Source: Methylobacterium goesingense
GTDB lineage: Bacteria; Pseudomonadota; Alphaproteobacteria; Rhizobiales; Beijerinckiaceae
Assembly: GCF_022179225.1 (NCBI RefSeq)
Contig: NZ_BPQL01000029.1
Coordinates: forward strand, 1-60,676
Direction: 5' to 3'
DNA: 60,676 nt
In this document: one piece after another, positions 1 to 18,334 of the stretch
Layout of the letters: each line of letters opens with the position of its first letter
Position numbering within the stretch: position 1 is the stretch's first letter
Made by a program: the position numbers and the translations under genes
The notes under the pieces: generated by a model
Told to the model about the DNA's origin: nothing
What the model saw: the letters and a program-made list of their open reading frames with translations, nothing else
Database searches by the model: none

Positions 1-52
1 GCTACGCGGCGGCATTCCTCGGCGTGGGCGCCAAGGAATGCCGCCGCGTAGC
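1..52. repeat. Perfect 19-bp inverted repeat at window edge
   Basis: Positions 1-19 and 34-52 are exact reverse complements with a 14-nt loop. The hairpin lies in the terminase large-subunit frame, exactly at the window edge. A real gene can contain this, but fold-back sequence at a contig end looks the same. Confidence 0.85.
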
Positions 53-1514
53 TGTCCTGGCCGTCGACCGCGTGAACGGCGCGCCCGGCCTGGGTCCGGA
101 CGAAGGCGTAGACCTCGGCGGTGAAGCCGCTGGAATCCACGCCCCAATCGCGAACGCGCATGTCGGCGCCGCTCTCGTGCTCCCATGTCTCGTCGAACAT
201 GGCCTCGAGGTCTTTCCAGACCTGGGCCCGAACCGTGTCACCGGGGAGCACCCGGTGCTCGACCAGCCAACGCTCCCGGTTGCGCCCGAAGGCCCAGACG
301 CTCGCCTCGAGGCGGTCTTTCTGGACGTCGACGCCGCCGAAGAGGATGAGGCCGCTTGCCGGCACGGTGCCGCTGCGATACCGATCCTTCCGCGCGTAGA
401 CGTCCTGCCACTCCGGCGCGTCGGCCCCCTCTTTCCATGTCCGCGCCAGCTGGGTGTTGAAGAACGTCCTCAACGCCTCCGGACCTCGTCTCAGCGCGCG
501 GGCGAACTTCGCCACCGTCTCGCGGATGGTCTGCTTCGGGGCGTAGAGCTTGGACGCCTGGAAGCCCGCATGGTCGTTCGGCACCGCCTCCGCGCCGCAG
601 TGGATGCACAGGGCCAGGGCGACGCCGTGCGCCTCTGGCGCCCAGCGTTCCGGAGTCTGATTTTCGCCGCAGCAGGTAAACGGCCGGGTCTGGCGCCACT
701 CCACCTTGCGCAGCGCGACGAGCCGCTGGGGCTCCGTCATCGGGTGCTCGCAGGCCACGCATTCGTAGCGCGCGGTCTCGGGCCGGATCTTGCCGGCCTC
801 ATCCTTGTCGAAGCGAACCTGCTCCCATTCGAGCGGGTGCCAGCCGTGGCAGCCCTGGCACTCGACGAAGGCCTTTCGCTGGTCGCTCTCCTCGTAGGAG
901 GCCTCGATGGCGCTGCGGCCTGCGATCGTCGGGGAGCAGGCCCGCACCGAAAGGCTGTTCGCCTTGAACTCGGCCTGCCGCTCCTCGGCGAGGTCGATGG
1001 GCGAGCCTTCACCGCCGGCCGAGAGCGGGTATTTGTCGATCTCGTCGCAGCAGAGCAGCCGGATCGGCCGCATCGCGAGGTTGGTCGGGCTGTTCGAGCC
1101 CACGAGGGTGATGTGCCCGCCGGGGAACTGCTTGTGCGTCAGCGTAGCGCCGGCGTCCCGGGACTTCAGGTCGCCGAAGATGTCCCGAAGGGCCTTCGAG
1201 TCCCGGATCATCGGGGCCAGCCGGTCCTTCGAGAACGTCTCGGCTGCGTCGTCCTTCGGCTGCACCACGAGGATGGGGCACGGGTCGATGTGGATGAACC
1301 GCCCGAGGATGTTCTCGATGACGGTCGTCTTCAGCAGCTGCGTGCAGGCCATCAGGGTGATGGTGGCCACCCCCGGCTCCGTCGCCGCCAGCATCGGGCC
1401 GCGGGCGACCTCGACCCGGGAGGTGACGAAGCGTCCTCCGTTCGAGGATTCCTTGCTGAGGCGCCGGAACTCCTCTGCCCACTCGACCACGTTGAAGTCT
1501 CGGGTCGGGGTCAT
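1..1514 (-). CDS. Phage terminase large subunit, GpA family (partial, C-terminus beyond window)
   Basis: ATPase-nuclease that cuts and translocates phage DNA into the prohead. The minus-strand frame is open from the ATG at 1514 to the window edge (about 504 codons). It shows the GpA-type N-terminus (VVEWAEEFRRLSKESS), an ATPase segment (ITLMACTQLLKTTVIENILG), a Walker-B-like LLCCDEIDKYP, and a cysteine-rich stretch (CQGCHGWHPLEW ... CVACEH) typical of GpA proteins. It lies directly downstream of the small subunit, 34 bp after its stop. In-frame codons continue upstream of 1514 without a stop, so the true start could be a little earlier and overlap the small subunit. The last residues before the edge coincide with a perfect inverted repeat (1-52), so the extreme C-terminal reading should be treated with caution. 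Confidence 0.9.
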   Translation of the reverse strand, partial: MTPTRDFNVVEWAEEFRRLSKESSNGGRFVTSRVEVARGPMLAATEPGVATITLMACTQLLKTTVIENILGRFIHIDPCPILVVQPKDDAAETFSKDRLAPMIRDSKALRDIFGDLKSRDAGATLTHKQFPGGHITLVGSNSPTNLAMRPIRLLCCDEIDKYPLSAGGEGSPIDLAEERQAEFKANSLSVRACSPTIAGRSAIEASYEESDQRKAFVECQGCHGWHPLEWEQVRFDKDEAGKIRPETARYECVACEHPMTEPQRLVALRKVEWRQTRPFTCCGENQTPERWAPEAHGVALALCIHCGAEAVPNDHAGFQASKLYAPKQTIRETVAKFARALRRGPEALRTFFNTQLARTWKEGADAPEWQDVYARKDRYRSGTVPASGLILFGGVDVQKDRLEASVWAFGRNRERWLVEHRVLPGDTVRAQVWKDLEAMFDETWEHESGADMRVRDWGVDSSGFTAEVYAFVRTQAGRAVHAVDGQDSYAAAFLGAHAEECRRV

Positions 1515-1548
1515 CCCCTTCCGCCAGGACCGGAGCAGGCTCCCCGTG

Positions 1549-2193
1549 TCAGCCGAAGTCGGCTTCAGGATCGCCGAGCTCGGAGAGGTGCTGTTTGACA
1601 TAGGCGTTCAGGATCGCCGTCAGCGCGCGGGGGTCGACCTTCAACTCATCGGCCATCGGGATGGCGACCCGGGCGGGCCAGGACAGCCACGCGTCGCGGA
1701 CATCGCGCGCCTGGTCGAAGAACAGTTTCTCGGCGGCCTCGCGGTCGACCAGCTTGCCCTCGTTCTTCTCGACCTCCTGCTTGCGCTGCAGGCCGAGGAA
1801 GTTCTCCTTCCGGCGGATGGCCAGCGGGAGGGGCAGGTTCGTCGGGTCGAGGCCCGCCCCGTCGTCCTCACCCTCGACCGGCACCGCGCCGGGCCTGGGC
1901 ATCGCCTCGCTGATCGTCTGCCAGGTGTCCGGCTTCGGCTTGGCGGGCGCCTTTGGCTCTGGCGCTGGCCTGTTACCCGGTACGGCTCGTACCGGGCGAT
2001 GGGTAACACCGCCCCGATAGTTCGCCGGGCGCTGGTCGAGGGCCCATTCGGTGGCCTCGACGTCGATCCGGCCAGCCTCGTCGGTGACGAGAATACCCTT
2101 TTGCTTCCAGCCAGTTACCGTCTTCCGGGACACTCCGCGACGGCGGGCGAAGTCGGCTTGGCTTAGGAATTTAGCCCCGGTCGTTTCGGCCAT
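1549..2193 (-). CDS. Phage terminase small subunit (Nu1-like DNA-packaging protein)
   Basis: A 214-residue DNA-recognition subunit of the packaging terminase. The N-terminus is a MerR/Nu1-type winged helix: residues 8-35 read LSQADFARRRGVSRKTVTGW followed by KQKGILV. A proline- and alanine-rich linker follows (about 70-100), then a helical C-terminal part (LGLQRKQEVEKNEGKLV) of the kind that binds the large subunit. It is followed by GpA on the same strand with little spacing, as in lambda-like late operons. The ATG at 2193 begins the helix-turn-helix segment almost at once, which supports this start. Confidence 0.85.
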   Translation of the reverse strand: MAETTGAKFLSQADFARRRGVSRKTVTGWKQKGILVTDEAGRIDVEATEWALDQRPANYRGGVTHRPVRAVPGNRPAPEPKAPAKPKPDTWQTISEAMPRPGAVPVEGEDDGAGLDPTNLPLPLAIRRKENFLGLQRKQEVEKNEGKLVDREAAEKLFFDQARDVRDAWLSWPARVAIPMADELKVDPRALTAILNAYVKQHLSELGDPEADFG

Positions 2194-2402
2194 AGGCGCT
2201 GTTACCTGTTACCCTGTTACCGGGTTTTGGGGCCCTGGCGCTAGGAACATTGGGGGCCCCGACCACCCGTATAGGGTTCGAAGGCCTAGGGTCCCTGCCG
2301 GTCAGCTGATCAAAACAAAATCTGGATCGATAAGTAGGATGTCGACATCTGGACTCAGACCGAAGATAGCCGAGCCCCTTACCTGACAGCGTAGGATACC
2401 TG

Positions 2403-3530
2403 ATGCGAGCGACTGTATGGATCTCCGGATGTTTTGCCGCCCTTACCCCAGTCTCGGTTTTCTCACTGGACGCGACGAACCCTCCGGTGCGCGGCGGGCC
2501 AATCACTCTTGAGACGTTGACGATTACGCAGCCCGGCTCGACCGGCGACGCTTCGCTGCTAAGCGTCAAGCGAGGAGACGGCGCAACGGAAACCCTACGG
2601 GCTCTTGCGGACGGTGTGGCGGCTAAGGCCGACAAAGCGGACTTGGGCAGTAGCATCCCAGGGGTTGCGTGGAGGCCCTTTCAAACCCGGATACTCATCA
2701 CGAAAGATCACCAGCCGGGCGAGGCGCAAGGGCTTCTTGATGTTCAGGTCAACACCCGTCCGGGTACGATCAATGGCGGCAGCGGTGTGGGAAACGGTGT
2801 CTCGGTGACGTCCCGAGTGCTTGCTGGAACGAAGTACGGGCACTTCAGCTTTGTCGCACTCACCGAAAATTACTCTGAGATGAAACCCGGCGATCCGTTC
2901 TTCGGCCACACCGGGGCGTCGCTTTACATAAATCAGAACAAAATCAACAGCGCACCAGGTTGGGGCTATGCGGCCGAGGTGAAGGAGACGCACGGCCTGT
3001 CAAACCCGATGCACGGGTCACTGGCGGGCGAGAACGCCATTATCGCAACAGGTACAGACGTTCACAGGAAGCGAGCAGGCCTTTTTATTCCGCTCAACAT
3101 TCTGCCTGGCAACGAGAAGACCCCAACTGAGGCTGCGCAGGGTTGGTACGTTAAAACTGCCCCAAACGCCCGCTTCTACGACGGTGGTCTCTTCGAAGGC
3201 GACTACGGCAATGTCATTAATGCAAGCAGTGTCAACGCTCGCTCTTTCATCGTTGGGACGGGTAAGTTCTCATCACCTGTTATCGACCTCCATGCCGTTC
3301 AGGCGGCAGGTAATGGCGCGGCGATCGCGCTGAACGCGACCCACTCCTTGCAATGGCAAACGGCAGAAGGCGTGAGCTTGGGAGGCATAGGGTATGATAC
3401 GTCAGTACCTGCGGCTCAGACGATTCAAATCACAGGTGTGCGCGTGCAAGAAGCACCGGGAGGAGAAATGGAAGCAGTCATCAACATCAACGGCAAGCGT
3501 TACGGTATCCGCCTACGTCCGCTTCCTTAG
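2403..3530 (+). CDS. Hypothetical protein in the prophage accessory region, possibly surface or tail-fibre related
   Basis: A 375-residue protein that I do not recognise. The first 22 residues are hydrophobic and could act as a signal segment. The region from about 30 to 80 is Thr/Gly/Ala-rich and resembles N-terminal stalks of phage fibre proteins (for example ITLETLTITQPGSTGDASLL). The rest is rich in Gly, Asn and Ser, with beta-type sequence and no catalytic motif I can name. The gene is on the strand opposite to terminase, has lower G+C than its neighbours and stands alone, which suggests a moron or an acquired gene. Tail-fibre or exported adhesin function is only a guess. Confidence 0.6.
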   Translation: MRATVWISGCFAALTPVSVFSLDATNPPVRGGPITLETLTITQPGSTGDASLLSVKRGDGATETLRALADGVAAKADKADLGSSIPGVAWRPFQTRILITKDHQPGEAQGLLDVQVNTRPGTINGGSGVGNGVSVTSRVLAGTKYGHFSFVALTENYSEMKPGDPFFGHTGASLYINQNKINSAPGWGYAAEVKETHGLSNPMHGSLAGENAIIATGTDVHRKRAGLFIPLNILPGNEKTPTEAAQGWYVKTAPNARFYDGGLFEGDYGNVINASSVNARSFIVGTGKFSSPVIDLHAVQAAGNGAAIALNATHSLQWQTAEGVSLGGIGYDTSVPAAQTIQITGVRVQEAPGGEMEAVININGKRYGIRLRPLP

Positions 3531-3805
3531 ATTAGCTTCCGATCGGCTCCGCTCAGAATTGCAGATCATGTTGCGCGAATGAAGCCCACAAGCGGGTGGA
3601 TCTGCTGAACTCCTGCGGGATCGTCCGGTACAAGGCGGTGGCGATGTGAAGGGAGGGACTTTGGCCCCGAACCTTTGCCTGATCGCTTTGCAATGCAAAG
3701 TGCGGCTTATGCAGCCGAAGAGGTATATAGCGCGGCGATTATATAGGACTGTGCTAGCGTCGCATTCAGCTCCGCATCTGCTGCCAAGCTGATCAGGGCC
3801 ACCCT
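3531..3805. other. Non-coding gap with a 15-bp palindrome
   Basis: There is no convincing gene here. Positions 3686-3700 form an exact palindrome, CTTTGCA-A-TGCAAAG. AT-rich sequence follows (about 3720-3760) and could hold the promoter of the gene starting at 3806. The palindrome is a candidate operator, but no cognate regulator is evident. Confidence 0.4.
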
Positions 3806-4048
3806 ATGCGTCTAGAGCGAACCAAGAATGGCGACTGGATGATTGATCCAGAGCAACTCCACTCCAGGCTCATGATCAATCCTGGCGTCATGCGCCAAAA
3901 AATGCGCCTAGGGCTCGTGACTAGCCGCATCGAACGAGGCTCCGATAAGGATCTCGGCTCATCCCGGGTGACGATACGTGTCGCCGGGTCATCCTGGGAG
4001 GGCATCTTCGATGATGCCGGAGCCCTGATTAGCGAGAAGATGCTGTAA
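3806..4048 (+). CDS. Small protein resembling DUF6522 proteins
   Basis: An 80-residue soluble protein with the pattern MRLER...GDWMIDPEQLHSRL, then MRQKMRLGLVTSRIERG and a C-terminal half rich in beta strands. Small proteins with this layout are common in Methylobacterium-type genomes, and the resemblance to DUF6522 is from memory. No catalytic residues are apparent. The gene stands alone on the plus strand in the prophage accessory block. Confidence 0.6.
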   Translation: MRLERTKNGDWMIDPEQLHSRLMINPGVMRQKMRLGLVTSRIERGSDKDLGSSRVTIRVAGSSWEGIFDDAGALISEKML

Positions 4049-4225
4049 CCCCGCGCGAGCGATCTCGCGTTCGAGGCACGGGCCTCCATCGTGGAGAAGC
4101 GATCTGACCCGTCTTTGCCAAGGGCTGACCGGCGCGCACGTACTGACGCGGGCGCCGTTCAGACTGTGGCTTCTAGAGTGCATGGGCGGACTGCCTGAAC
4201 GGGTAGGTCTGCGAGGAGCAACCCT

Positions 4226-4546
4226 ATGTTCAAGACACTCACGCTCGGTGCTGGCCTGTTGGCTGCCGGTTTGTTCATGGCACCGGCACCGTCGTCAGCA
4301 GCACCGCTCGGTGCTGTGACGATGCCTGAAGCCACGAGCACAGTAGAGAACGTCCAGTACGGCTACGGCGGATATGGTGGCGGTGGATACGGGCGCCGCG
4401 GTTATGGCGGTGGATACGGACGTCGTGGCTACGGTGGCGGTCGTCACTTCGGACCGCGCTTTGGTGGCCGTGAGTTCGGCTTCGGTCGGGGACGCGGTCA
4501 TGGTTATGGACACGACCGTGGATACGGCCGGCGCAGCTACTACTAG
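4226..4546 (+). CDS. Secreted Gly/Tyr/Arg-rich repeat protein
   Basis: A 106-residue protein with a clear signal peptide (hydrophobic residues 5-20, then a likely Ala-X-Ala cleavage site near 24-26). The mature part is low complexity, built from tandem Y-G-G and G-R-R-G-Y-G units, and ends in Tyr-Tyr. Such short Gly-rich exported proteins are widespread in Rhizobiales and their role is not established. Surface or periplasmic assembly is possible. A GGAG-type ribosome site precedes the ATG, and a strong hairpin (4555-4580) follows the stop, so it is a self-contained unit. Confidence 0.75.
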   Translation: MFKTLTLGAGLLAAGLFMAPAPSSAAPLGAVTMPEATSTVENVQYGYGGYGGGGYGRRGYGGGYGRRGYGGGRHFGPRFGGREFGFGRGRGHGYGHDRGYGRRSYY

Positions 4547-4882
4547 AACATAGAGGCGTCCCTCAAGTTTGAGGGGCGCCATCAATGGTATCAAGAGATA
4601 CGCTGGCTCAAGCAGTGCCCTCTTGGGGTACAACTTACTGAACCAGCCTTCAAAGTGGAGAGGCGGTTTCACCCGTCTCCGTAGAGGCTTAACCTCAATC
4701 CCGCTAGGGGAGAGTACAGCGCCTACAGGGTCACTGAACAACTACAATACTCGGTCGACATGCGCAACGCCTTTGAGCCGTTCAGAGCGTCGTTATTGAC
4801 ATCCTGCAGATTTGGCTATTGCGGCGAGTGCCCTATCAGGGCACCTTTCTGACCTGTGGCGTCGGGGAGCAGGGCACCGGGT
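4547..4882. other. Gap with a terminator-like hairpin after the Gly-rich gene
   Basis: Positions 4555-4566 and 4569-4580 form a 12-bp stem with one mismatch and a 2-nt loop. No T-tract follows, so factor-independent termination is uncertain and the hairpin may only stabilise the transcript. I see no gene in the remaining roughly 300 bp. Confidence 0.5.
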
Positions 4883-5155
4883 ATGGCTGACGATCACAGC
4901 TCCGAGCAGGAGCAGTTCTTCGCCCTGGAGGCAGCCGAGCAGGTCGAGTTCGACGGCGAAGGCCCCTTCATGTTCCCCCTGTGCGAAGCTAAAGCCGGCA
5001 TTCTCATGGGGGAGGATGTGGGAATCCTGATCCTGAAAACCGTCGAAGGTGATCGCTTTGGCGTGCCGCTGGGGCACGAGGCGCTGTCGACCCTCTACCA
5101 AGTACTGGGCGAAGCGCTGCGTGGGCTGAAGCCTGCTGATGAGATCATACAGTGA
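4883..5155 (+). CDS. Hypothetical small acidic protein, first of a tandem paralogue pair
   Basis: A 90-residue acidic protein of unknown function. Its core (GILILKTVEGDRFGVPLGHEAL, then YQVLGEALRGL) matches the next gene's core (IIVFTTVEDQRIGVPMSHQAL, HQTVGEALRML), so the two are tandem duplicates. The fold suggested is two or three strands followed by an amphipathic helix. A GTG at 4856 would add nine residues, but paralogue alignment favours the ATG at 4883. It heads a four-gene plus-strand group. Confidence 0.6.
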   Translation: MADDHSSEQEQFFALEAAEQVEFDGEGPFMFPLCEAKAGILMGEDVGILILKTVEGDRFGVPLGHEALSTLYQVLGEALRGLKPADEIIQ

Positions 5156-5230
5156 CCCCCGGGCTCGACGACGCGAAAGTCGCGCGCGTCCACTGCGTCA
5201 TTCCCTATCCCGAACTCATAGGCATCTGAA

Positions 5231-5491
5231 ATGGCGGATCAGAAGCCCTACCAGCCGTCAGAGGCTGAGGATCTGTTCCCCGAGCCGGAGAAAGGCGACT
5301 TTCTCGCACCGATGGCCATGCCATCCCCCGGACTGATGATGGGTGAGAGCATGGCCATCATCGTTTTTACGACCGTCGAGGATCAGCGCATTGGCGTTCC
5401 AATGAGCCACCAGGCCCTATCCGACCTGCATCAAACGGTTGGAGAAGCCCTCCGCATGCTCCAGGCCCCTGAGGGTGGATCGGTGCAGTGA
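5231..5491 (+). CDS. Hypothetical small acidic protein, second of a tandem paralogue pair
   Basis: An 86-residue paralogue of the preceding gene with the same strand-then-helix core at residues about 45-78. The N-terminus is acidic (SEAEDLFPEPEKGDF). Its TGA stop overlaps the GTG start of the next gene in a GTGA junction, so translation is probably coupled. I cannot assign a function. Co-transcription with the two larger genes downstream suggests a partner or regulatory role. Confidence 0.65.
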   Translation: MADQKPYQPSEAEDLFPEPEKGDFLAPMAMPSPGLMMGESMAIIVFTTVEDQRIGVPMSHQALSDLHQTVGEALRMLQAPEGGSVQ

Positions 5492-6081
5492 CAGGAGGCC
5501 CGCTCGGCTATCCATTGAATGAGTGGGCGTCCCTGTTGAACGAATCGAAGGGCGTCTTCAACTGGCCGGACTGGCAAACGCCGCGCGTCTTTGTCGAGGG
5601 CAAACGGGCCGCTGCCAAGGCTGGACGATCAAGGTTCGTCTCGCACGAGACTGAGCGGTGCCGCCTGCACGTTCAGCTAATGGACAAGTCCGGCGCTTCC
5701 ATAGAAGGGGCCGAGGTCTGCCTCATGATGTGGCGCTACCGTCCCATGGAGGATATGTCAGCCATCCTAAGCGTCGCTTACGAGGGAAAATCGGTCTGCA
5801 TCTGCCGGGTCGACGTCCGCCCTGCGGCACCTCATATCAACAAGCACTGGCGGCGCTTCGGCGGCCCCTCGGAGATCAACGGATCGCACGTCCATCAATT
5901 TTCCGATAACGCCACGCTGGGCCGGAAAGCGTTCGATCCTTTCGGCAATCTCCCGCAAGCCGTGCCACTGCACACCGAGCCGGACCATTTGCGGGATTTC
6001 TTGCAAGTCGTAGAGCGCGCGTTCAATGTCGATGGGCTAACGACCCTTCACCCACCGCCAACCCAGGAGAGCCTATTATGA
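5488..6081 (+). CDS. Hypothetical protein coupled to a DUF1828-like gene
   Basis: A 197-residue protein that I do not recognise. It starts at a GTG overlapping the previous stop and ends with a TGA overlapping the ATG of the next gene. It contains a conserved-looking middle (HVQLMDKSGASIEGAEVCLMMWRY, split here as it is longer in the protein) and a C-terminal part with many His residues (INKHWRRFGG, GSHVHQFSDN). The His-rich segments could bind metal or nucleic acid, but no known catalytic motif is complete. Tight coupling on both sides says it works with its neighbours. Confidence 0.65.
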   Translation: MTGGPLGYPLNEWASLLNESKGVFNWPDWQTPRVFVEGKRAAAKAGRSRFVSHETERCRLHVQLMDKSGASIEGAEVCLMMWRYRPMEDMSAILSVAYEGKSVCICRVDVRPAAPHINKHWRRFGGPSEINGSHVHQFSDNATLGRKAFDPFGNLPQAVPLHTEPDHLRDFLQVVERAFNVDGLTTLHPPPTQESLL

Positions 6082-6848
6082 CTTCGCTTCTCGGGTTGGC
6101 CGTCAACCCGACCATTGTGACGCCGAGGAGCATCAGCGCCATCGCTGACGAGGTTGCTCGTTCGCTTGCATATTCGCGAGAGTCGGCCGAGGCACCTGCT
6201 ATCGTTACGCCGCTGCTCTATCCAGGCGGCTCAAGGGTTGTTCTCACCTTGCGGGAAGATAGCGGCAGCTTCTTCGTGACAGATGGCGGGCATGGCGCGC
6301 GCGAGGCCGACATGATGGGCGGTTCCCGCGTTTTTCAGCGTGTCGCTCGCGACCTCGCAGAGGCCAACGACATCCGCTTCGACAGCGACCTCATTTTCGA
6401 CATCGAGGTTCCTCGCGATGCGCTGCTGACGGCGGCCATCGTGGTGGCAAACGCCTCAAAGACCGCCGTCGAGACCACAGCGCTCCGACTGGCGAACCGC
6501 AAAATTGAAGGGCGGCTGGACGAGCTGCTTGTGCGGTTTGACCGCCAGTTCGGCGTTGAGAAAGTGATTCGCGCGCCGAGCATTCGGGGCGCCACCGAAG
6601 AGTGGGAGGTCGATGCAATGATCATCACCTCTGGACGCTCGGCGCTCGTTGATCTTGTTGCTGCCAATGCAAATTCGGCAAACTCAGTCCTTGCTAAGTA
6701 CTTTGATATCAGTCGACTTCCAGAAGATGAGGGCTTCCGTAGGTTCGCGGTTTTGCTTGATCGCGAAAAAACCCCGAACCTGAGTGTGCTCGGCGCAACC
6801 TCTCGCTTGGTAGAATACGATCAGGCGGTTCAGGCCATAGCCGCCTGA
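6078..6848 (+). CDS. DUF1828-like prophage accessory protein
   Basis: A 256-residue protein. Residues about 50-75 (VVLTLREDSGSFFVTDGG) resemble the signature of DUF1828 proteins, where a short beta region ends in a (T/S)D(D/G)G turn. The rest is helical, with a later region (VDAMIITSGRSALVDLVA) that looks like a nuclease-like or ligand-binding core, but the catalytic residues are not clear. DUF1828 genes are typically found in mobile elements next to small partner genes. The start ATG overlaps the upstream stop (ATGA). A defence or toxin-type role is plausible from context only. Confidence 0.55.
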   Translation: MTSLLGLAVNPTIVTPRSISAIADEVARSLAYSRESAEAPAIVTPLLYPGGSRVVLTLREDSGSFFVTDGGHGAREADMMGGSRVFQRVARDLAEANDIRFDSDLIFDIEVPRDALLTAAIVVANASKTAVETTALRLANRKIEGRLDELLVRFDRQFGVEKVIRAPSIRGATEEWEVDAMIITSGRSALVDLVAANANSANSVLAKYFDISRLPEDEGFRRFAVLLDREKTPNLSVLGATSRLVEYDQAVQAIAA

Positions 6849-6860
6849 TCTATCGGGCGC

Positions 6861-6917
6861 CTAGAACGGCAGCGCATCCTCCACCCCTGGCGGGACATTC
6901 TCGAAGCTGCCAGGGTG
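6861..6917 (-). repeat. Imperfect repeat copy 1: orphan C-terminal coding tail ending EDALPF
   Basis: Read on the minus strand, this block encodes HPGSFENVPPGVEDALPF followed by a TAG stop. It pairs with a second copy at 7205-7260, and together they bracket the small membrane gene at 6931. The acidic tip plus L-P-F resembles the C-terminal tip of single-stranded DNA-binding proteins (D-D-D-I-P-F). The frame is closed by a stop about 20 codons upstream, so it looks like a relic. Confidence 0.5.
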
Positions 6918-6930
6918 GCGCGCCCTCGCG

Positions 6931-7200
6931 ATGGACGTTCCGAAGGCAAGCGGGGATCACGTGAAGCTCACCCTATACATCGCCGGCGCGCTGCACATCG
7001 CGTTCGGCATTTTCTTCTTCCTCGCGTCATCCGGTGCACCCGCAACGGAAGGCGGCGTCTACTTGGGGCCAGCGCTTGGCGGCACGATCGGTGGGTTCGT
7101 GATGCTCGCCCTTGGCCGTGCCATCCAGCTGCTAAAGCGGATCGAGCGGAGCGTTCGCCAACCGGTGTCGGACGAGACGCAGTCCAACCGCCTCTCGTAG
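6931..7200 (+). CDS. Small two-segment inner-membrane protein
   Basis: An 89-residue protein with two predicted membrane helices (about 14-32 and 45-66) and a basic C-terminal tail (LKRIERSVRQP). A GTG at 6961, preceded by a GGGG ribosome site, would start just before the first helix and may be the true start. I do not recognise the family. Small double-spanning proteins occur as phage holins and as superinfection-exclusion proteins, but nothing here decides between these. The gene is flanked by the two EDALPF relic repeats. Confidence 0.55.
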   Translation: MDVPKASGDHVKLTLYIAGALHIAFGIFFFLASSGAPATEGGVYLGPALGGTIGGFVMLALGRAIQLLKRIERSVRQPVSDETQSNRLS

Positions 7201-7204
7201 CTCC

Positions 7205-7306
7205 CTAGAACGGTAGAGCATCCTCGATACCCGGCGAGACAGGTCCATAGACCGCCAGGGTGTTGGGCTCGCTCGTGCCGGAAAATCGGCAGCTGGCATC
7301 CGCCTG
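7205..7306 (-). pseudogene. Repeat copy 2: remnant reading ...PGIEDALPF stop
   Basis: The minus-strand frame reads NTLAVYGPVSPGIEDALPF and a TAG stop. About 15 further open codons lie upstream before another stop. It matches copy 1 at 6861-6917 in its last ten residues (PG-V/I-EDALPF). Two tails of the same type flanking one gene suggest a duplicated and decayed gene end. Confidence 0.45.
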
Positions 7307-7313
7307 CCACTAT

Positions 7314-7640
7314 CTACTTTTGGCTTACGGCCCATGCGGTTATTGGCTGAACACTAATTTGGCCATTGTGGCACCATCTCACCGACATCCACCGATAAGT
7401 TCTATCGTCGCCAAATTTTAACTCTACCCTTGGCGGCATCTTATCTGGAAGCTTTGAAGCGACTTTCACTAGTGTTTTGCTGCTAATTTCGCCGACAACT
7501 TCGCAGTCAAGTATATTTCGCCCCACCCTTAGCTTTGATGCGTGTGAGCGAACGGACGAAGGCGGCTTTTTGTTTTTACCGACATGAAGGGTGAATCGCT
7601 TAAATCTTGAAGGAACCCAAGCAAACATGTTGTATACCAA
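7314..7640 (-). CDS. Hypothetical protein, possibly a divergent PilZ-like domain
   Basis: A 108-residue protein with unusually AT-rich codons for this genome. From about residue 40 it has a strand-rich layout (ILDCEVVGEISSKTLVKVA ... VELKFGDDRTYRWMSVRWCHNGQISVQ, in pieces) like the C-terminal beta-barrel of PilZ proteins. The basic N-terminus (SRFKRFTLHVGKNKK) does not show a clean RxxxR c-di-GMP motif. The base composition suggests recent transfer. The PilZ assignment is tentative. Confidence 0.5.
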   Translation of the reverse strand: MVYNMFAWVPSRFKRFTLHVGKNKKPPSSVRSHASKLRVGRNILDCEVVGEISSKTLVKVASKLPDKMPPRVELKFGDDRTYRWMSVRWCHNGQISVQPITAWAVSQK

Positions 7641-7834
7641 ATATCAGATTTGTCTAAGATAGCATCCAAGGCCTTACATGTCGGAGCATTAATACTTCTT
7701 TTCTTGCATCCCAACTGTACGAATTGTGATGAGGGTGGTGCCACATGGCGTTTCCCAAGAGGCCCACTCCTGAGAACGGTGCCTCCGACCTCCCTCGTTC
7801 GGAATGGTGCGAGGCGCTTCGCTGATCGCGTCGC

Positions 7835-8551
7835 CTACAGCATCTGCACATCGGCCATCCCCATCTCAACCGGCGAGGGACGCCCGAACAGGCTGACGGC
7901 GACCCGCAGACGGTCGTTCGGCAGGATCGCTTCGACCACGGCTGGGAAGCTCGCGAATGGGCCCTCCCGCACGACGACGCTCTGACCGACCTTGATGCCG
8001 ACTGGCTCGACGATCTCGCCGCGTGCCAGGACGTCGACGAACTGCTGCAAGCCCTCGGCGTCGAGGCGGGCCGGCTTGAGGACGGGACCCGCGATGTTGC
8101 CCTCCGTGCTGGCGTCCTCGACCGGGTAGCAGACGAGATCGGCGACGCCGGGAGCAGCCTTGGCTTCGTCGAGGTGGTCGGCATCAGCGACACCGATGAA
8201 GACGATGCGGAGGAGCATGGCTGTCCGGCGGATCACGCGGCGGCCGCGGCGCACGACCACCTCCGAGGTGCGGGGCTGATAGGTGACGACCTGGGCGGCC
8301 TGGAGGGCCTGGAGGGCCCGCTCGCCCATCCGTGGCTTCGTCCGGGCAATGTACCAGAGCAGGCTCGGATCGATCGTCAGGGAGGCCACGCCGCAGACCG
8401 GGTCCGCAGCGCTCTTGGCACTTGTAGCGACGTTCGGCGAGGCATTGGCACTCAGGCCGGCTGGAAGCCCCCGACGCTCCGACCTGCGCTGTTCCCGACG
8501 CTGCCTCCGCTCTCTATCGCGTTGACGCTTGCCCTTGGCTCGGCTGCTCAT
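7835..8551 (-). CDS. Phage NusG/RfaH-like transcription factor with arginine-rich N-terminus
   Basis: A 238-residue protein. Residues 64-178 form an NGN domain (WYIARTKPRMGERAL, then YQPRTSEVVVRRGRRVIRR). Residues about 188-222 are a KOW domain (GQSVVVREGPFASFPAVVEA). NusG paralogues bind RNA polymerase at the clamp and suppress pausing or termination. The first 30 residues are extremely basic (KRQRDRERRQRREQRRSERR), like the RNA-binding arginine-rich motif of lambda N. A GAGGA ribosome site precedes the ATG at 8551, so the basic segment is really part of the protein. The gene closes the leftward replication operon, upstream of terminase, where a late-gene antiterminator would act. Confidence 0.85.
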   Translation of the reverse strand: MSSRAKGKRQRDRERRQRREQRRSERRGLPAGLSANASPNVATSAKSAADPVCGVASLTIDPSLLWYIARTKPRMGERALQALQAAQVVTYQPRTSEVVVRRGRRVIRRTAMLLRIVFIGVADADHLDEAKAAPGVADLVCYPVEDASTEGNIAGPVLKPARLDAEGLQQFVDVLARGEIVEPVGIKVGQSVVVREGPFASFPAVVEAILPNDRLRVAVSLFGRPSPVEMGMADVQML

Positions 8552-8594
8552 CGGTGATCCTCGGCTGGCGACTGGATGAGGGTGGAGGGCAGGG

Positions 8595-10136
8595 TCACGG
8601 CACGAAGGCCAGCAGCTCGTCGTCGAACATCAGCGAGACGTCGCCGATCTTGCCAGTCTCGTGGAATTTGACCTTCCGGATGCCGACGTTGGCGATGCGG
8701 TCGTGCGGCGAGGCGCGGTGAATCACGACGCCGATCTCGGCCTTGTTGGCCCATGTGGCGCCGTCGGCGATGTCGTAGAGGGACATCGGCTCGCCGGCCT
8801 TGACCGAGAGGCCGGCCGCCTTCGTGGGATGAGCCACGACGATCGTGCAGACGTCGTAGGAGTGGGCGAAGCGCTTCAGCAGGCGGATGGCCCGATTGGT
8901 GTAGTCGGCCACGTTCTCGCCAGGCCGGCGTTTGTGCTCGACCTCGTTCCAGGGATCGAGGAGCAGCATCGAGATGCCCTCGCGCACCACGGCGTCGGCT
9001 GCCCTATCAATGACCCACTGCACGTCGGCCTCGGTCTCGTCGTCCTCCGGGGCCAGGGCGATGAAGACGAAGTGCTCGTCAATGAAGCGCCGGCAGCCGT
9101 CGCATTCCGGCTTGGTCCAGAGGGACCGGGGCTTCTGCAGGAGGAAGCCGATCAGCATGTTTTCCAGGATCGGCCGGACGTGCATCTCGAAGGAGGCGAT
9201 GGCGATGCGCCAACCGTGGCCACGAGCCATGTTCATGGCGATTTGGGTCATGAGGGCGGTCTTGCCCCCGCCGGGCAGGCCGCTGACGACGACGAAGGCG
9301 CCTCGATAGAGCCGCATGTGCAGGTCGAGCGGCGGAAAGCCGGTGGTGAGTGCCTGGAGCGGTGGTCGCTCCGGGAAGTCCGAGAGCTTGTAGAGACCCT
9401 TCACGGGGAAAGGCTTGGCATCCCGGATGCAGGCGAGGACGGCGTCGGCTCCGAAGTAGTGGAGCACCTCGTTCAGATCCTTGGCCGGCCTCAGGACCCC
9501 GTCCGCGTCGGGCACGCACGGTTCGGGCGGGTAGCTCACCATGGCGCAGCGGGAGCGACCAAGGCGACGGGCGAGCTCCAAGCTGAGGCGGCTGCCGGGC
9601 TCGTCACCATCGGTCGCCAGGACGAACCGGCGAATCCGCTTCAGGCGCTCCCAGTTGTTCGAAACGTAGCGGTACTTGTCGTCGTGCTCGGGCACCACGT
9701 CGTCGGCGTTGTCCGGCACGGCGACGAGATTGCCGGCCTCGTCACGGGCCGGCGGCGCACCGTCAGGGACCGAGACAGCGAACGGAAAACCGGCCTGGAT
9801 GGCCGCGATCGTGTCCAATTCGCCTTCGGTGATCACGGCTGGAGCCTGCCCGGAGTGCAAGGCCGGATCGTCGAGAACGTCGGCGTTGAAGAACGTCTTG
9901 CGAGCCCCGGCCCGCTGCCAGAACCGCTTGCCGCCCTTCGCGTCGCGAACCCGGTACTTGGCGTTCACCTCCTCGCCGCCGTCGATGTACGGGAACACCA
10001 GGATCGTGCCGGCGATGTCAGGAGCCGGGTCGCCACCCTGGACGTGCTTGGCGCTGTAGATCCCCAAACGTGATGCGGTCTCGCTCTCGATGGACCGGCT
10101 TTCCAGCCACGCCACGGCCTTGGGATTGAGGTGCAT
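8595..10136 (-). CDS. Toprim-containing replicative helicase (T7 gp4/Twinkle-like)
   Basis: A 513-residue protein. A Toprim domain lies at about 98-185, with the acidic TEGELD (103-108) and TDGDEPG (175-181) motifs. A RecA-like DnaB-type helicase follows from about 262, with Walker A GLPGGGKT (286-293) and Walker B MLLLDPWNE (about 390-398). It would unwind phage DNA and, through Toprim, could act in priming. The N-terminal zinc finger normal for gp4-type primases is missing here and is encoded separately, in another frame, by the overlapping upstream gene. The ATG at 10136 lies inside that gene. Confidence 0.9.
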   Translation of the reverse strand: MHLNPKAVAWLESRSIESETASRLGIYSAKHVQGGDPAPDIAGTILVFPYIDGGEEVNAKYRVRDAKGGKRFWQRAGARKTFFNADVLDDPALHSGQAPAVITEGELDTIAAIQAGFPFAVSVPDGAPPARDEAGNLVAVPDNADDVVPEHDDKYRYVSNNWERLKRIRRFVLATDGDEPGSRLSLELARRLGRSRCAMVSYPPEPCVPDADGVLRPAKDLNEVLHYFGADAVLACIRDAKPFPVKGLYKLSDFPERPPLQALTTGFPPLDLHMRLYRGAFVVVSGLPGGGKTALMTQIAMNMARGHGWRIAIASFEMHVRPILENMLIGFLLQKPRSLWTKPECDGCRRFIDEHFVFIALAPEDDETEADVQWVIDRAADAVVREGISMLLLDPWNEVEHKRRPGENVADYTNRAIRLLKRFAHSYDVCTIVVAHPTKAAGLSVKAGEPMSLYDIADGATWANKAEIGVVIHRASPHDRIANVGIRKVKFHETGKIGDVSLMFDDELLAFVP

Positions 10137-17014: not shown

Positions 17015-17215
17015 ATGCAGCAGGCCGATCCGACGCGCTTCGTCGTTCGATTCCCTGAGGTGGCGAGGGAGCTCGGGGTGTCGGCGACGACCCTTCGCCA
17101 GATGTGCCGGAAGGGGAAGGGGCCGCCCCTGCTACAGCTGAGCGAGCGGTGCTTCGGCGTTCGCCGCGGCGAGCTCGATGCCTGGATCGAGACCCGCAAG
17201 GTGGCGAGCCCATAG
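17015..17215 (+). CDS. AlpA-like excisionase/HTH protein
   Basis: A 66-residue protein with a MerR/AlpA-type fold: RFPEVARELGVSATTLRQMC, then KGPPLLQLSERCFGVRRGEL and DAWIETRK. Such proteins bend att DNA and direct excision by the neighbouring integrase, or activate its transcription. The ATG at 17015 has an AGGAG site. Its 3' end overlaps the 3' end of the convergent integrase gene by 84 bp. Confidence 0.85.
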   Translation: MQQADPTRFVVRFPEVARELGVSATTLRQMCRKGKGPPLLQLSERCFGVRRGELDAWIETRKVASP

Positions 17216-18334
17216 GTCGAGAGCGGCCCGCTTCTCCGGGTTGTAGAGGGCATAATTGTAGACGCCGGCGACGCCGGCCTTCGTCCCTGAGATGTGGTTC
17301 AGCACGGCCTCGACCACATGAGGCAGCACCCCGAGGTCGCCCATCCCCGTGGCGGCCGTCCGACGCAGATCGTGCAGCCGCCAGTCCTTCACCCCGGATG
17401 CCCGGTCGAGCGCGGCCTTCGCCCGGGTGAAGCCCTGGAATCCGCCAGCGCCGCTGCCGAACACCAGACCCCGTCCTTCGATCCGCGGCGCGCCGGCCAG
17501 GATCGCGAGCGCCGGCCGGGACAGGGGCACATCGTGCGACAACCCGTTCTTCGTCCGCTCGCGCGGCAGGCTCCAGAGCCCGGTGGCGAGATCAAGTTCG
17601 GCCCACGGCATGTCGGCCACCTCGTCACGGCGCTGGGCGGTGAGCAGGAGTAGGCGCACGATCCGCCCGAAGTCGCCGACGGGGAGGGCGCCCAGGATGG
17701 CCTTGATCTCCTCCGGCTTGAGCACGCGCTGCCGGCTCTCCTCCCGGTGCGGCTTGCGGGTGCCGACGACCGGGTTCGACTCGGCCACCCCCTCCGCAAT
17801 CAGCCAGGCGTAGAACGATGAGAGCGTGGTGCGCGCGCGGTTCGCTGCGTGTGGCCCCGAAGTCTTGACGATCTCGTTCAGCCGGGCCGACACTTGGGCG
17901 CGGGTGACGCCATCGACGGGGGTGCGGTGCAGCGGCGTCCAGATCTTCTGCATGTAGTAGGTCGATTCGCCGTGGCCCTTGGCGCGCACGCGGGGCCGGT
18001 GCGCATCAAGATAGGACTCGATTTTCAGCCCCACCGTGATGGCGGCACGCTTTCTCTCAGCCTCGCGCTCGGCGCTGGGGTCGCCTCCCAAGCGGACCCG
18101 GGCCAAGCGCTCAGATGCGGCGCGGCGCGCGTCGGCCGCGGGCAGCAGCCCGACCTTGCCCAGCGTCTCCCGCTTGGTCTGCCCGAGCGCATTGCGGTAC
18201 TGCACGACCCACACCCGCGAGCCGCCCGCGTTGGCCCGGACCCCGAACCCGGCCAGATCGTCGTCGAACACGATGACGTAGGCCTTGCCCTCGGGTACTT
18301 TCAGGGCAGCCGCCGATTGGTTCGTCAGGCGCAT
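17132..18334 (-). CDS. int: Tyrosine-recombinase integrase (P4-type, DUF4102 N-terminus)
   Basis: A 400-residue site-specific recombinase that integrates and excises the prophage. The N-terminal DUF4102 arm-binding domain covers about 1-90 and the core-binding SAM-like domain about 100-190. The catalytic residues are visible: Arg at about 235 (TAQRRDEV), Lys near 262 (RTKNG), H321-x-x-R324 (HDLRR), His 347 (LNH) and Tyr about 359 (GVYNY). It is complete. It lies about 160 bp from the tRNA-Val fragment that forms the attachment site, the usual place for such integrases. Confidence 0.95.
   Translation of the reverse strand: MRLTNQSAAALKVPEGKAYVIVFDDDLAGFGVRANAGGSRVWVVQYRNALGQTKRETLGKVGLLPAADARRAASERLARVRLGGDPSAEREAERKRAAITVGLKIESYLDAHRPRVRAKGHGESTYYMQKIWTPLHRTPVDGVTRAQVSARLNEIVKTSGPHAANRARTTLSSFYAWLIAEGVAESNPVVGTRKPHREESRQRVLKPEEIKAILGALPVGDFGRIVRLLLLTAQRRDEVADMPWAELDLATGLWSLPRERTKNGLSHDVPLSRPALAILAGAPRIEGRGLVFGSGAGGFQGFTRAKAALDRASGVKDWRLHDLRRTAATGMGDLGVLPHVVEAVLNHISGTKAGVAGVYNYALYNPEKRAALDLWARHLAGLDPGIELAAANAEAPLAQL

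Follow-up and report, generated by a model that had tools for sequence, protein, structure and literature searches.

In phage lambda, the Q gene lies between the replication genes and the late genes, and the N protein has an N-terminal arginine-rich motif; to our knowledge, neither Q nor N is of the NusG type. Here we describe a NusG-like gene of a prophage, and a structured leader RNA inherited with it (R1), in a stretch of 60,676 nucleotides (nt) from Methylobacterium goesingense (assembly GCF_022179225.1, contig NZ_BPQL01000029.1, positions 1 to 60,676; this whole stretch is called the window). The gene resembles Q in its place, after a primase/helicase gene and before a predicted late promoter and the terminase genes, and its product resembles N in a conserved basic arm at the N terminus, predicted to be helical over residues 5-27. 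Judged from gene order and sequence comparison, the protein is probably the processive antiterminator of the prophage's late genes, likely recruited by R1. By analogy, the best explanation is that the protein and its RNA work in the manner of LoaP from the place that Q occupies in lambda.

LoaP, a NusG paralog of Bacillus, is encoded next to its target operon (PMC7819879), and a structured hairpin in the leader of that operon is essential for antitermination in vivo and in vitro (PMC12691694). RfaH is recruited by ops, a 12-nt DNA element (PMC7819879). In phage HK022 the put RNA, located near a promoter, alters RNA polymerase without the need for any protein (PMC9378689). The prophage system shares with LoaP the combination of a NusG paralog and a structured RNA in a 5′ leader (dfn/mln in Bacillus). 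It differs in that the protein belongs to a Methylobacterium prophage, falls outside the LoaP family by score and carries a basic arm, and in that R1 is an RNA of about 118 nt with four helices rather than a small hairpin. With RfaH it has in common a specialised NusG paralog of the same two-domain fold, which would likewise be processive along an extensive operon gained by horizontal transfer; the signal linked to the gene is, however, a long covarying RNA and not 12 nt of DNA (PMC7819879). R1 resembles put (PMC9378689) in being close to a promoter, here a predicted one, but put acts on early genes and is protein-free, while R1 precedes late genes and goes with a NusG-like gene. The literature searched, which left out most subscription papers, showed no NusG paralog of a phage with a described RNA partner.

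The NusG-like gene is confirmed as a real gene of a prophage. It and its two domains are located as follows:
7835..8551, minus strand: NusG-like gene (NGN-KOW, 238 amino acids, N-terminal basic arm), from the open reading frame (ORF), profile matches and predicted structure
8018..8365, minus strand: NGN domain, residues ~63-178, likely RNA polymerase-binding, from profile and fold comparison
7838..7996, minus strand: KOW domain, residues ~186-238, from fold comparison
The ORF starts with ATG and has exactly the boundaries at which a sequence-only reading of this DNA had placed an NGN-KOW protein, and profile searches bear that assignment out. The Pfam NusG NGN profile matches residues 66-140 with an expectation value (E) of 6.8e-6 and 26.9 bits, above the curated cut-off of 22.2; the KOW profile matches residues 188-215 at E 0.008, under its cut-off; and the PHROG 6386 profile, whose label 'transcription antiterminator' is annotation only, matches residues 64-236 at E 2.8e-13. 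An NGN domain followed by a KOW domain is what defines the NusG/Spt5 superfamily, and the protein has the two in this order. In Pfam, with E up to 1, only NusG and KOW matched. The scores stay below the cut-offs for housekeeping NusG (TIGR00922, 44.6 versus 135.7 bits), RfaH (TIGR01955, 38.9 versus 144.5) and LoaP (NF033641, 11.8 versus 125), and the genome encodes a separate housekeeping NusG (G000:C2:19595-20122). A protein database search returned 93 relatives, 85 of them close (E 1.7e-41 or better); all close relatives with an organism in the source name come from Methylobacterium or Methylorubrum. When a protein profile was run across the family (248 genomes), the window's own protein was the sole listed match far above the level of housekeeping NusG.

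Comparison of oriented relatives revealed R1 as a conserved stretch 3′ of the NusG-like gene and on the same strand:
4612..4729, minus strand: R1, a conserved structured RNA of four helices that is predicted to recruit the NusG-like protein, from alignment and covariation
The window copy lies 3.1 kilobases (kb) past the stop codon of the NusG-like gene and 2.4 kb ahead of the terminase small subunit gene (terS), between plus-strand ORFs at 4226-4546 and 4856-5155; shorter, mechanically called ORFs overlap it. In an alignment of 22 sequences, 92.7% of the cells in the four helices are paired (85.2% in shuffles) and 44 cells carry double changes (17.1 in shuffles). The covariation score of 0.227 (0.103 when shuffled) is reached by none of 500 shuffles, and structures slid along the alignment give at most 0.092. 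At one position of helix 1, the 22 sequences have C-G 10 times, A-U nine times, U-A twice and U-G once. A second set of 19 rows, about 14 of them new and at least five records scoring identically to members of the model alignment, has 38 double-change cells versus 10.3, in an alignment fitted to the R1 model, which favours covariation there.

R1 is a new structured RNA element without an Rfam match. Rfam gave no match at gathering thresholds in the whole window and only transfer RNAs (tRNAs) in eight R1 loci; at 4500-4850, with E up to 10, it gave only RF01075, on the opposite strand and far under its gathering score. As DNA, the R1 sequence had no match in phage and plasmid collections. Across the order, with stricter filters, R1 was detected in one of 297 genomes drawn, namely the window's own. 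A second, weak match to the R1 model at 4053-4167 on the minus strand, about 450 nt downstream of the main copy (19.2 bits, E 0.0066; E-values of both RNA models used here are rough), is possibly a decayed copy. In L042, L047 and L050, a tRNA or tRNA-like gene begins no more than about 40 nt past R1.

These structural data bear on a recruitment mode akin to that of RfaH, in which the protein would be loaded through non-template DNA at an ops-like pause site in or beside R1 and the helices would play a part in pausing or have some other function. Among the matches listed, the top fold match of the NusG-like protein is RfaH on the ops-paused complex; an entry of the Foldseek list entitled 'NusG-RNA complex' (8f5g), which we take to be LoaP, falls outside the 50 VIA rows listed. 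The stretch after helix 3, nearly invariant and unpaired in the consensus, could also be a signal at the DNA level. Against this, changes that preserve pairing occur on both sides of helices 1 and 4 and point to RNA structure, R1 has roughly ten times the length of the 12-nt ops, and the score in the RfaH family is far under its cut-off; DNA-based recruitment of this kind is unlikely.

Directly 5′ of R1 lies a promoter-like sequence with a 17-nt spacer:
4762..4767, minus strand: -35-like hexamer TTGCGC, predicted late promoter, from conservation
4739..4744, minus strand: -10-like hexamer TAGTTG, predicted late promoter, from conservation
The pattern TTG[CT] plus TA at this spacing, which was chosen after these loci had been seen, occurs directly 5′ of R1 in 25 of 27 loci and in 14 of 5400 control windows. 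Where gene and R1 adjoin, the -35 element overlaps the 3′ end of the NusG-like coding sequence, in its final codons. The pattern is retained in all ten loci where R1 stands far from that gene and is thus free of its coding constraint. A generic sigma-70 scan of 1500-8700 found no site; the promoter prediction rests on conservation. The predicted transcription start lies at most about 10 nt from the first base of R1, which would put helix 1 near the 5′ end of the transcript.

The gene and R1 are inherited together. Each of the 27 non-redundant loci in the NusG-like group to which the window belongs has R1 on the same strand (L003, L007 and L076 having been dropped as duplicates of the window, L004 and L008), 10-23 nt after the NusG-like stop codon in 17 and 0.6-4.9 kb after it in ten. 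It was found in none of the 17 fetched loci of more divergent NusG-like proteins (28-35% identity). A tree built from 43 proteins unites the 25 R1 carriers in a single group (99/98). Distances between NusG-like proteins correlate with distances between their RNAs, with r 0.72 over 25 loci and r 0.69 over the ten displaced ones; the permutation p is 0.0001 in both cases, the lowest value that the test can return. L054 and L057 were excluded from this test and from the tree. In 12 loci with a usable terS (L006 and L040, with partial terS matches, were left out), r is 0.79 between NusG-like protein and RNA, 0.20 between NusG-like protein and terS (p 0.17) and 0.16 between RNA and terS (p 0.16). 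The RNA therefore follows the protein and not the operon behind it. A survey of the genus detected R1 in 25 of 111 genomes, and 30 of its 35 matches lie 19-4864 nt downstream of a listed NusG-like match on the same strand. Loci L098 to L102 have an R1 match and no NusG-like match within the fetched 9-19 kb; L098 is a short contig and the L102 match is weak (E 5.3e-4). R1 at L099 to L102 may lie in prophage remnants or decayed prophages.

The more divergent NusG-like genes are accompanied by another conserved RNA in the same place, R2, located downstream of the gene in 16 of 17 loci; in the remaining one, L066, the contig ends inside the gene (it is labelled R2 in the tree all the same). The R2 anchor lies 84-312 nt after the stop codon in 13 loci and 1.7-2.0 kb after it in three, and the alignment has 19 double-change cells versus 5.6. 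No identity threshold divides R1 from R2 carriers, L059 (with R1) and L064 and L071 (without it) all being near 35%. R2 was detected in 29 of the 111 genomes of the genus, with 26 of 33 matches behind a listed NusG-like match, and in two of the 297 genomes across the order, one in the genus and one, a weak match (E 2.8e-4), outside it. Among the 73 NusG-like matches listed (down to E 1e-8, with matches confined to the last 55-57 residues set aside as apparent housekeeping NusG), 30 have R1, 26 have R2 and none has both.

Since a different RNA occupies the same place beside divergent proteins, the two partners appear to be swapped together, as a matched cassette. One genome, G068, contains both kinds of prophage with terminase small subunits that are 96% identical, which looks like a cassette swap. 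A broader proposal is that, besides Q and put, phages have a third kind of antitermination, which Methylobacterium prophages employ for their late genes and in which a NusG paralog reads its own leader RNA, and that at least two orthogonal pairs, with R1 and R2, pass between phages as cassettes without regard to the terminase, so that prophages sharing a host would ignore each other's late leaders; we hold this to be evenly balanced between right and wrong. In L069 to L075, divergent NusG-like genes and R2 occur with no match to the window's terminase, and short ORFs flanking the gene in L075 resemble, by eye, repressor and connector genes; these loci are possibly domesticated prophages or clusters like gene-transfer agents.

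The arm distinguishes the protein further:
8453..8542, minus strand: Arg-rich N-terminal arm, codons of residues 4-33, from composition, predicted helix and conservation
The sequence-only reading had described an extension of about 30 residues rich in Arg, Gln and Glu as a tail. The extension is present and conserved but N-terminal, with 12 Arg, 2 Lys, 3 Gln and 3 Glu among the 30 residues; beyond the predicted helix, residues 28-43 are of low confidence. The Arg-rich stretch exceeds chance, because only 26 of 4633 windows of 30 residues in the long open frames of the window (antisense frames included) reach 13 Arg and Lys, and because relatives keep it. When homologues were checked for the same extension, as that reading had advised, the DNA of 25 R1-bearing relatives gave a usable start, and 23 of these had 11-14 Arg and Lys within the first 33 residues. 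In L044, the arm is encoded inside the frame with no ATG ahead of it, and in L057 the N terminus is replaced. Some relatives have later annotated starts (Leaf117, for example, at 164 residues), and the arm is nonetheless encoded in the DNA (236 residues). Most divergent NusG-like proteins likewise start with a basic stretch, as judged by eye. Charge and conservation suggest a role for the arm, which may be RNA binding.

RNA-addressed processive antitermination would fit the gene's position, its fold of a polymerase-binding kind, the leader RNA found where late transcription is predicted to start, and the matched inheritance of the two. The NusG-like protein would be made last in the early operon. 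RNA polymerase would then start at the weak predicted promoter about 3 kb downstream and at once make the ~118-nt R1, which, as its covariation indicates, would fold into four conserved helices in the cell. The arm, the NGN and KOW domains, or both, would hold R1; the NGN domain, to judge from its fold, would clamp RNA polymerase during elongation, keep host NusG off and remain bound like RfaH. The modified polymerase would cross the 2.4-kb leader, which is antisense to plus-strand ORFs and might otherwise invite Rho or pausing, and go on to transcribe the terminase and virion genes. The sequence-only reading, which had suggested a processive antiterminator recognising a nascent RNA in the early leader, is partly supported: a covarying, co-inherited RNA does stand at a predicted promoter ahead of the terminase, but on the late side. 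If true, this would add a second RNA-addressed NusG system to that of LoaP, would make RNA-addressed NusG paralogs a phage strategy as well and would explain late-gene expression across long leaders in these prophages. With two RNA families and a candidate promoter the question is directly testable, and the two RNA classes would let specificity be probed by swapping partners.

A number of observations weigh against this interpretation. Single-sequence folding energies are unremarkable (z scores of -0.4 to -1.5 in four R1 members; 0.3 to -1.8 in three R2-type sequences); among the four, only L047 has all consensus helices in its minimum-energy fold, and that of L041 is quite unlike the consensus. 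Single-sequence folding alone would not have revealed R1. In the genus, five of 35 R1 matches and seven of 33 R2 matches have no listed NusG-like match nearby, and 17 of the 73 listed NusG-like matches have neither RNA, at least one of them being a housekeeping NusG (G031:C125). R2 carriers do not come out as one clade in the tree, where the housekeeping NusG sits among them on a long branch, and linked inheritance can inflate a distance correlation. R1 is also kept beside a broken NusG-like gene in L054, L057 and L058 (TGA in frame). Such loci would suit a leader RNA that acts on polymerase by itself, as putRNA of HK022 does, with the NusG-like protein acting elsewhere or globally. R1 would come first in the predicted transcript much as putL lies just downstream of PL, and put works without protein (PMC9378689). 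Yet the RNA type goes with the NusG-like group and not with the terminase, and most R1 matches in the genus (30 of 35) stand behind a listed NusG-like gene, so that we give a protein-independent R1 the least credence of the explanations considered.

Terminators count against the interpretation as well. In the 1.5 kb after R1, the 27 loci have four intrinsic terminators in sense and two in antisense orientation, with no enrichment and none of them in the window; a looser scan of 1500-8700 gave five terminator-like sites versus 5.7 in shuffles. The window has no clear intrinsic terminator between R1 and the terminase, unlike the dfn leader, which has one. In another reading, R1 might be an ordinary late-region attenuator or small RNA kept by linkage, and the protein a general competitor of host NusG that would relieve Rho silencing of the prophage. 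The fourth helix of R1 resembles a terminator stem, linkage is tight in 17 of the 27 loci, and the KOW domain resembles that of housekeeping NusG (root-mean-square deviation 1.4 over 58 residues and 40% identity with the C-terminal domain of the Escherichia coli protein). No U-tract follows the fourth helix, however, the pairing persists in the ten loci with gene and RNA 0.6-4.9 kb apart, and the two protein groups have two different RNAs among the NusG-like matches listed, all of which makes such an attenuator improbable. Intrinsic terminators were rejected as the target of antitermination for want of enrichment after R1; as they are rare in late leaders, Rho or pausing would be the likelier obstacle to an antiterminating polymerase. 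After R2, 13 loci have five sense terminators and two antisense. Two of the five, in L060 and L062, are strong intrinsic-terminator-like hairpins with a T-run directly behind R2 and offer a natural place to test readthrough.

The gene order around the pair is as follows:
8595..10136, minus strand: primase/helicase, upstream neighbour in the putative early operon, from profile matches
1549..2193, minus strand: terminase small subunit (phrog_57, E 2.4e-21), the first gene to be identified in the predicted late operon
3..1514, minus strand: terminase large subunit frame (GpA family, E 9.5e-68), cut by the contig end, from a profile match
The order agrees with the earlier proposal that the NusG-like gene ends an early operon and precedes morons and terminase, the operon itself being a likely arrangement. 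The terminase small subunit had no match in Pfam. Across the group, terS stands behind R1 in 16 of the 27 loci, at about 0.7-5.2 kb.

Between the NusG-like gene and the terminase, the gene-like ORFs run along the plus strand. Eight plus-strand ORFs at 2403-7200 were scanned, and seven had no Pfam match; the ORFs there are candidate morons, opposed to the late operon. A small plus-strand ORF at 3806-4048 matches DUF6522 (E 2.9e-12). On the minus strand at 17132-18334 lies a tyrosine integrase (Arm-DNA-bind_3, Phage_integrase). About 100 nt immediately 5′ of terS, at about 2194-2297 on the minus strand, are conserved, with GGTAAC-type repeats and a GGGTGGTCGGGGCCCC core. Because this element is kept with either RNA type and is located at the terminase start, it was set aside as an antitermination target in favour of a likely cos or terminase-binding site; we take it to resemble the lambda cos site with its terminase-binding repeats. 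The GGGTGGTCGG core upstream of terS is exact in 13 of the 14 loci listed, with the GGTAAC-type repeats behind it.
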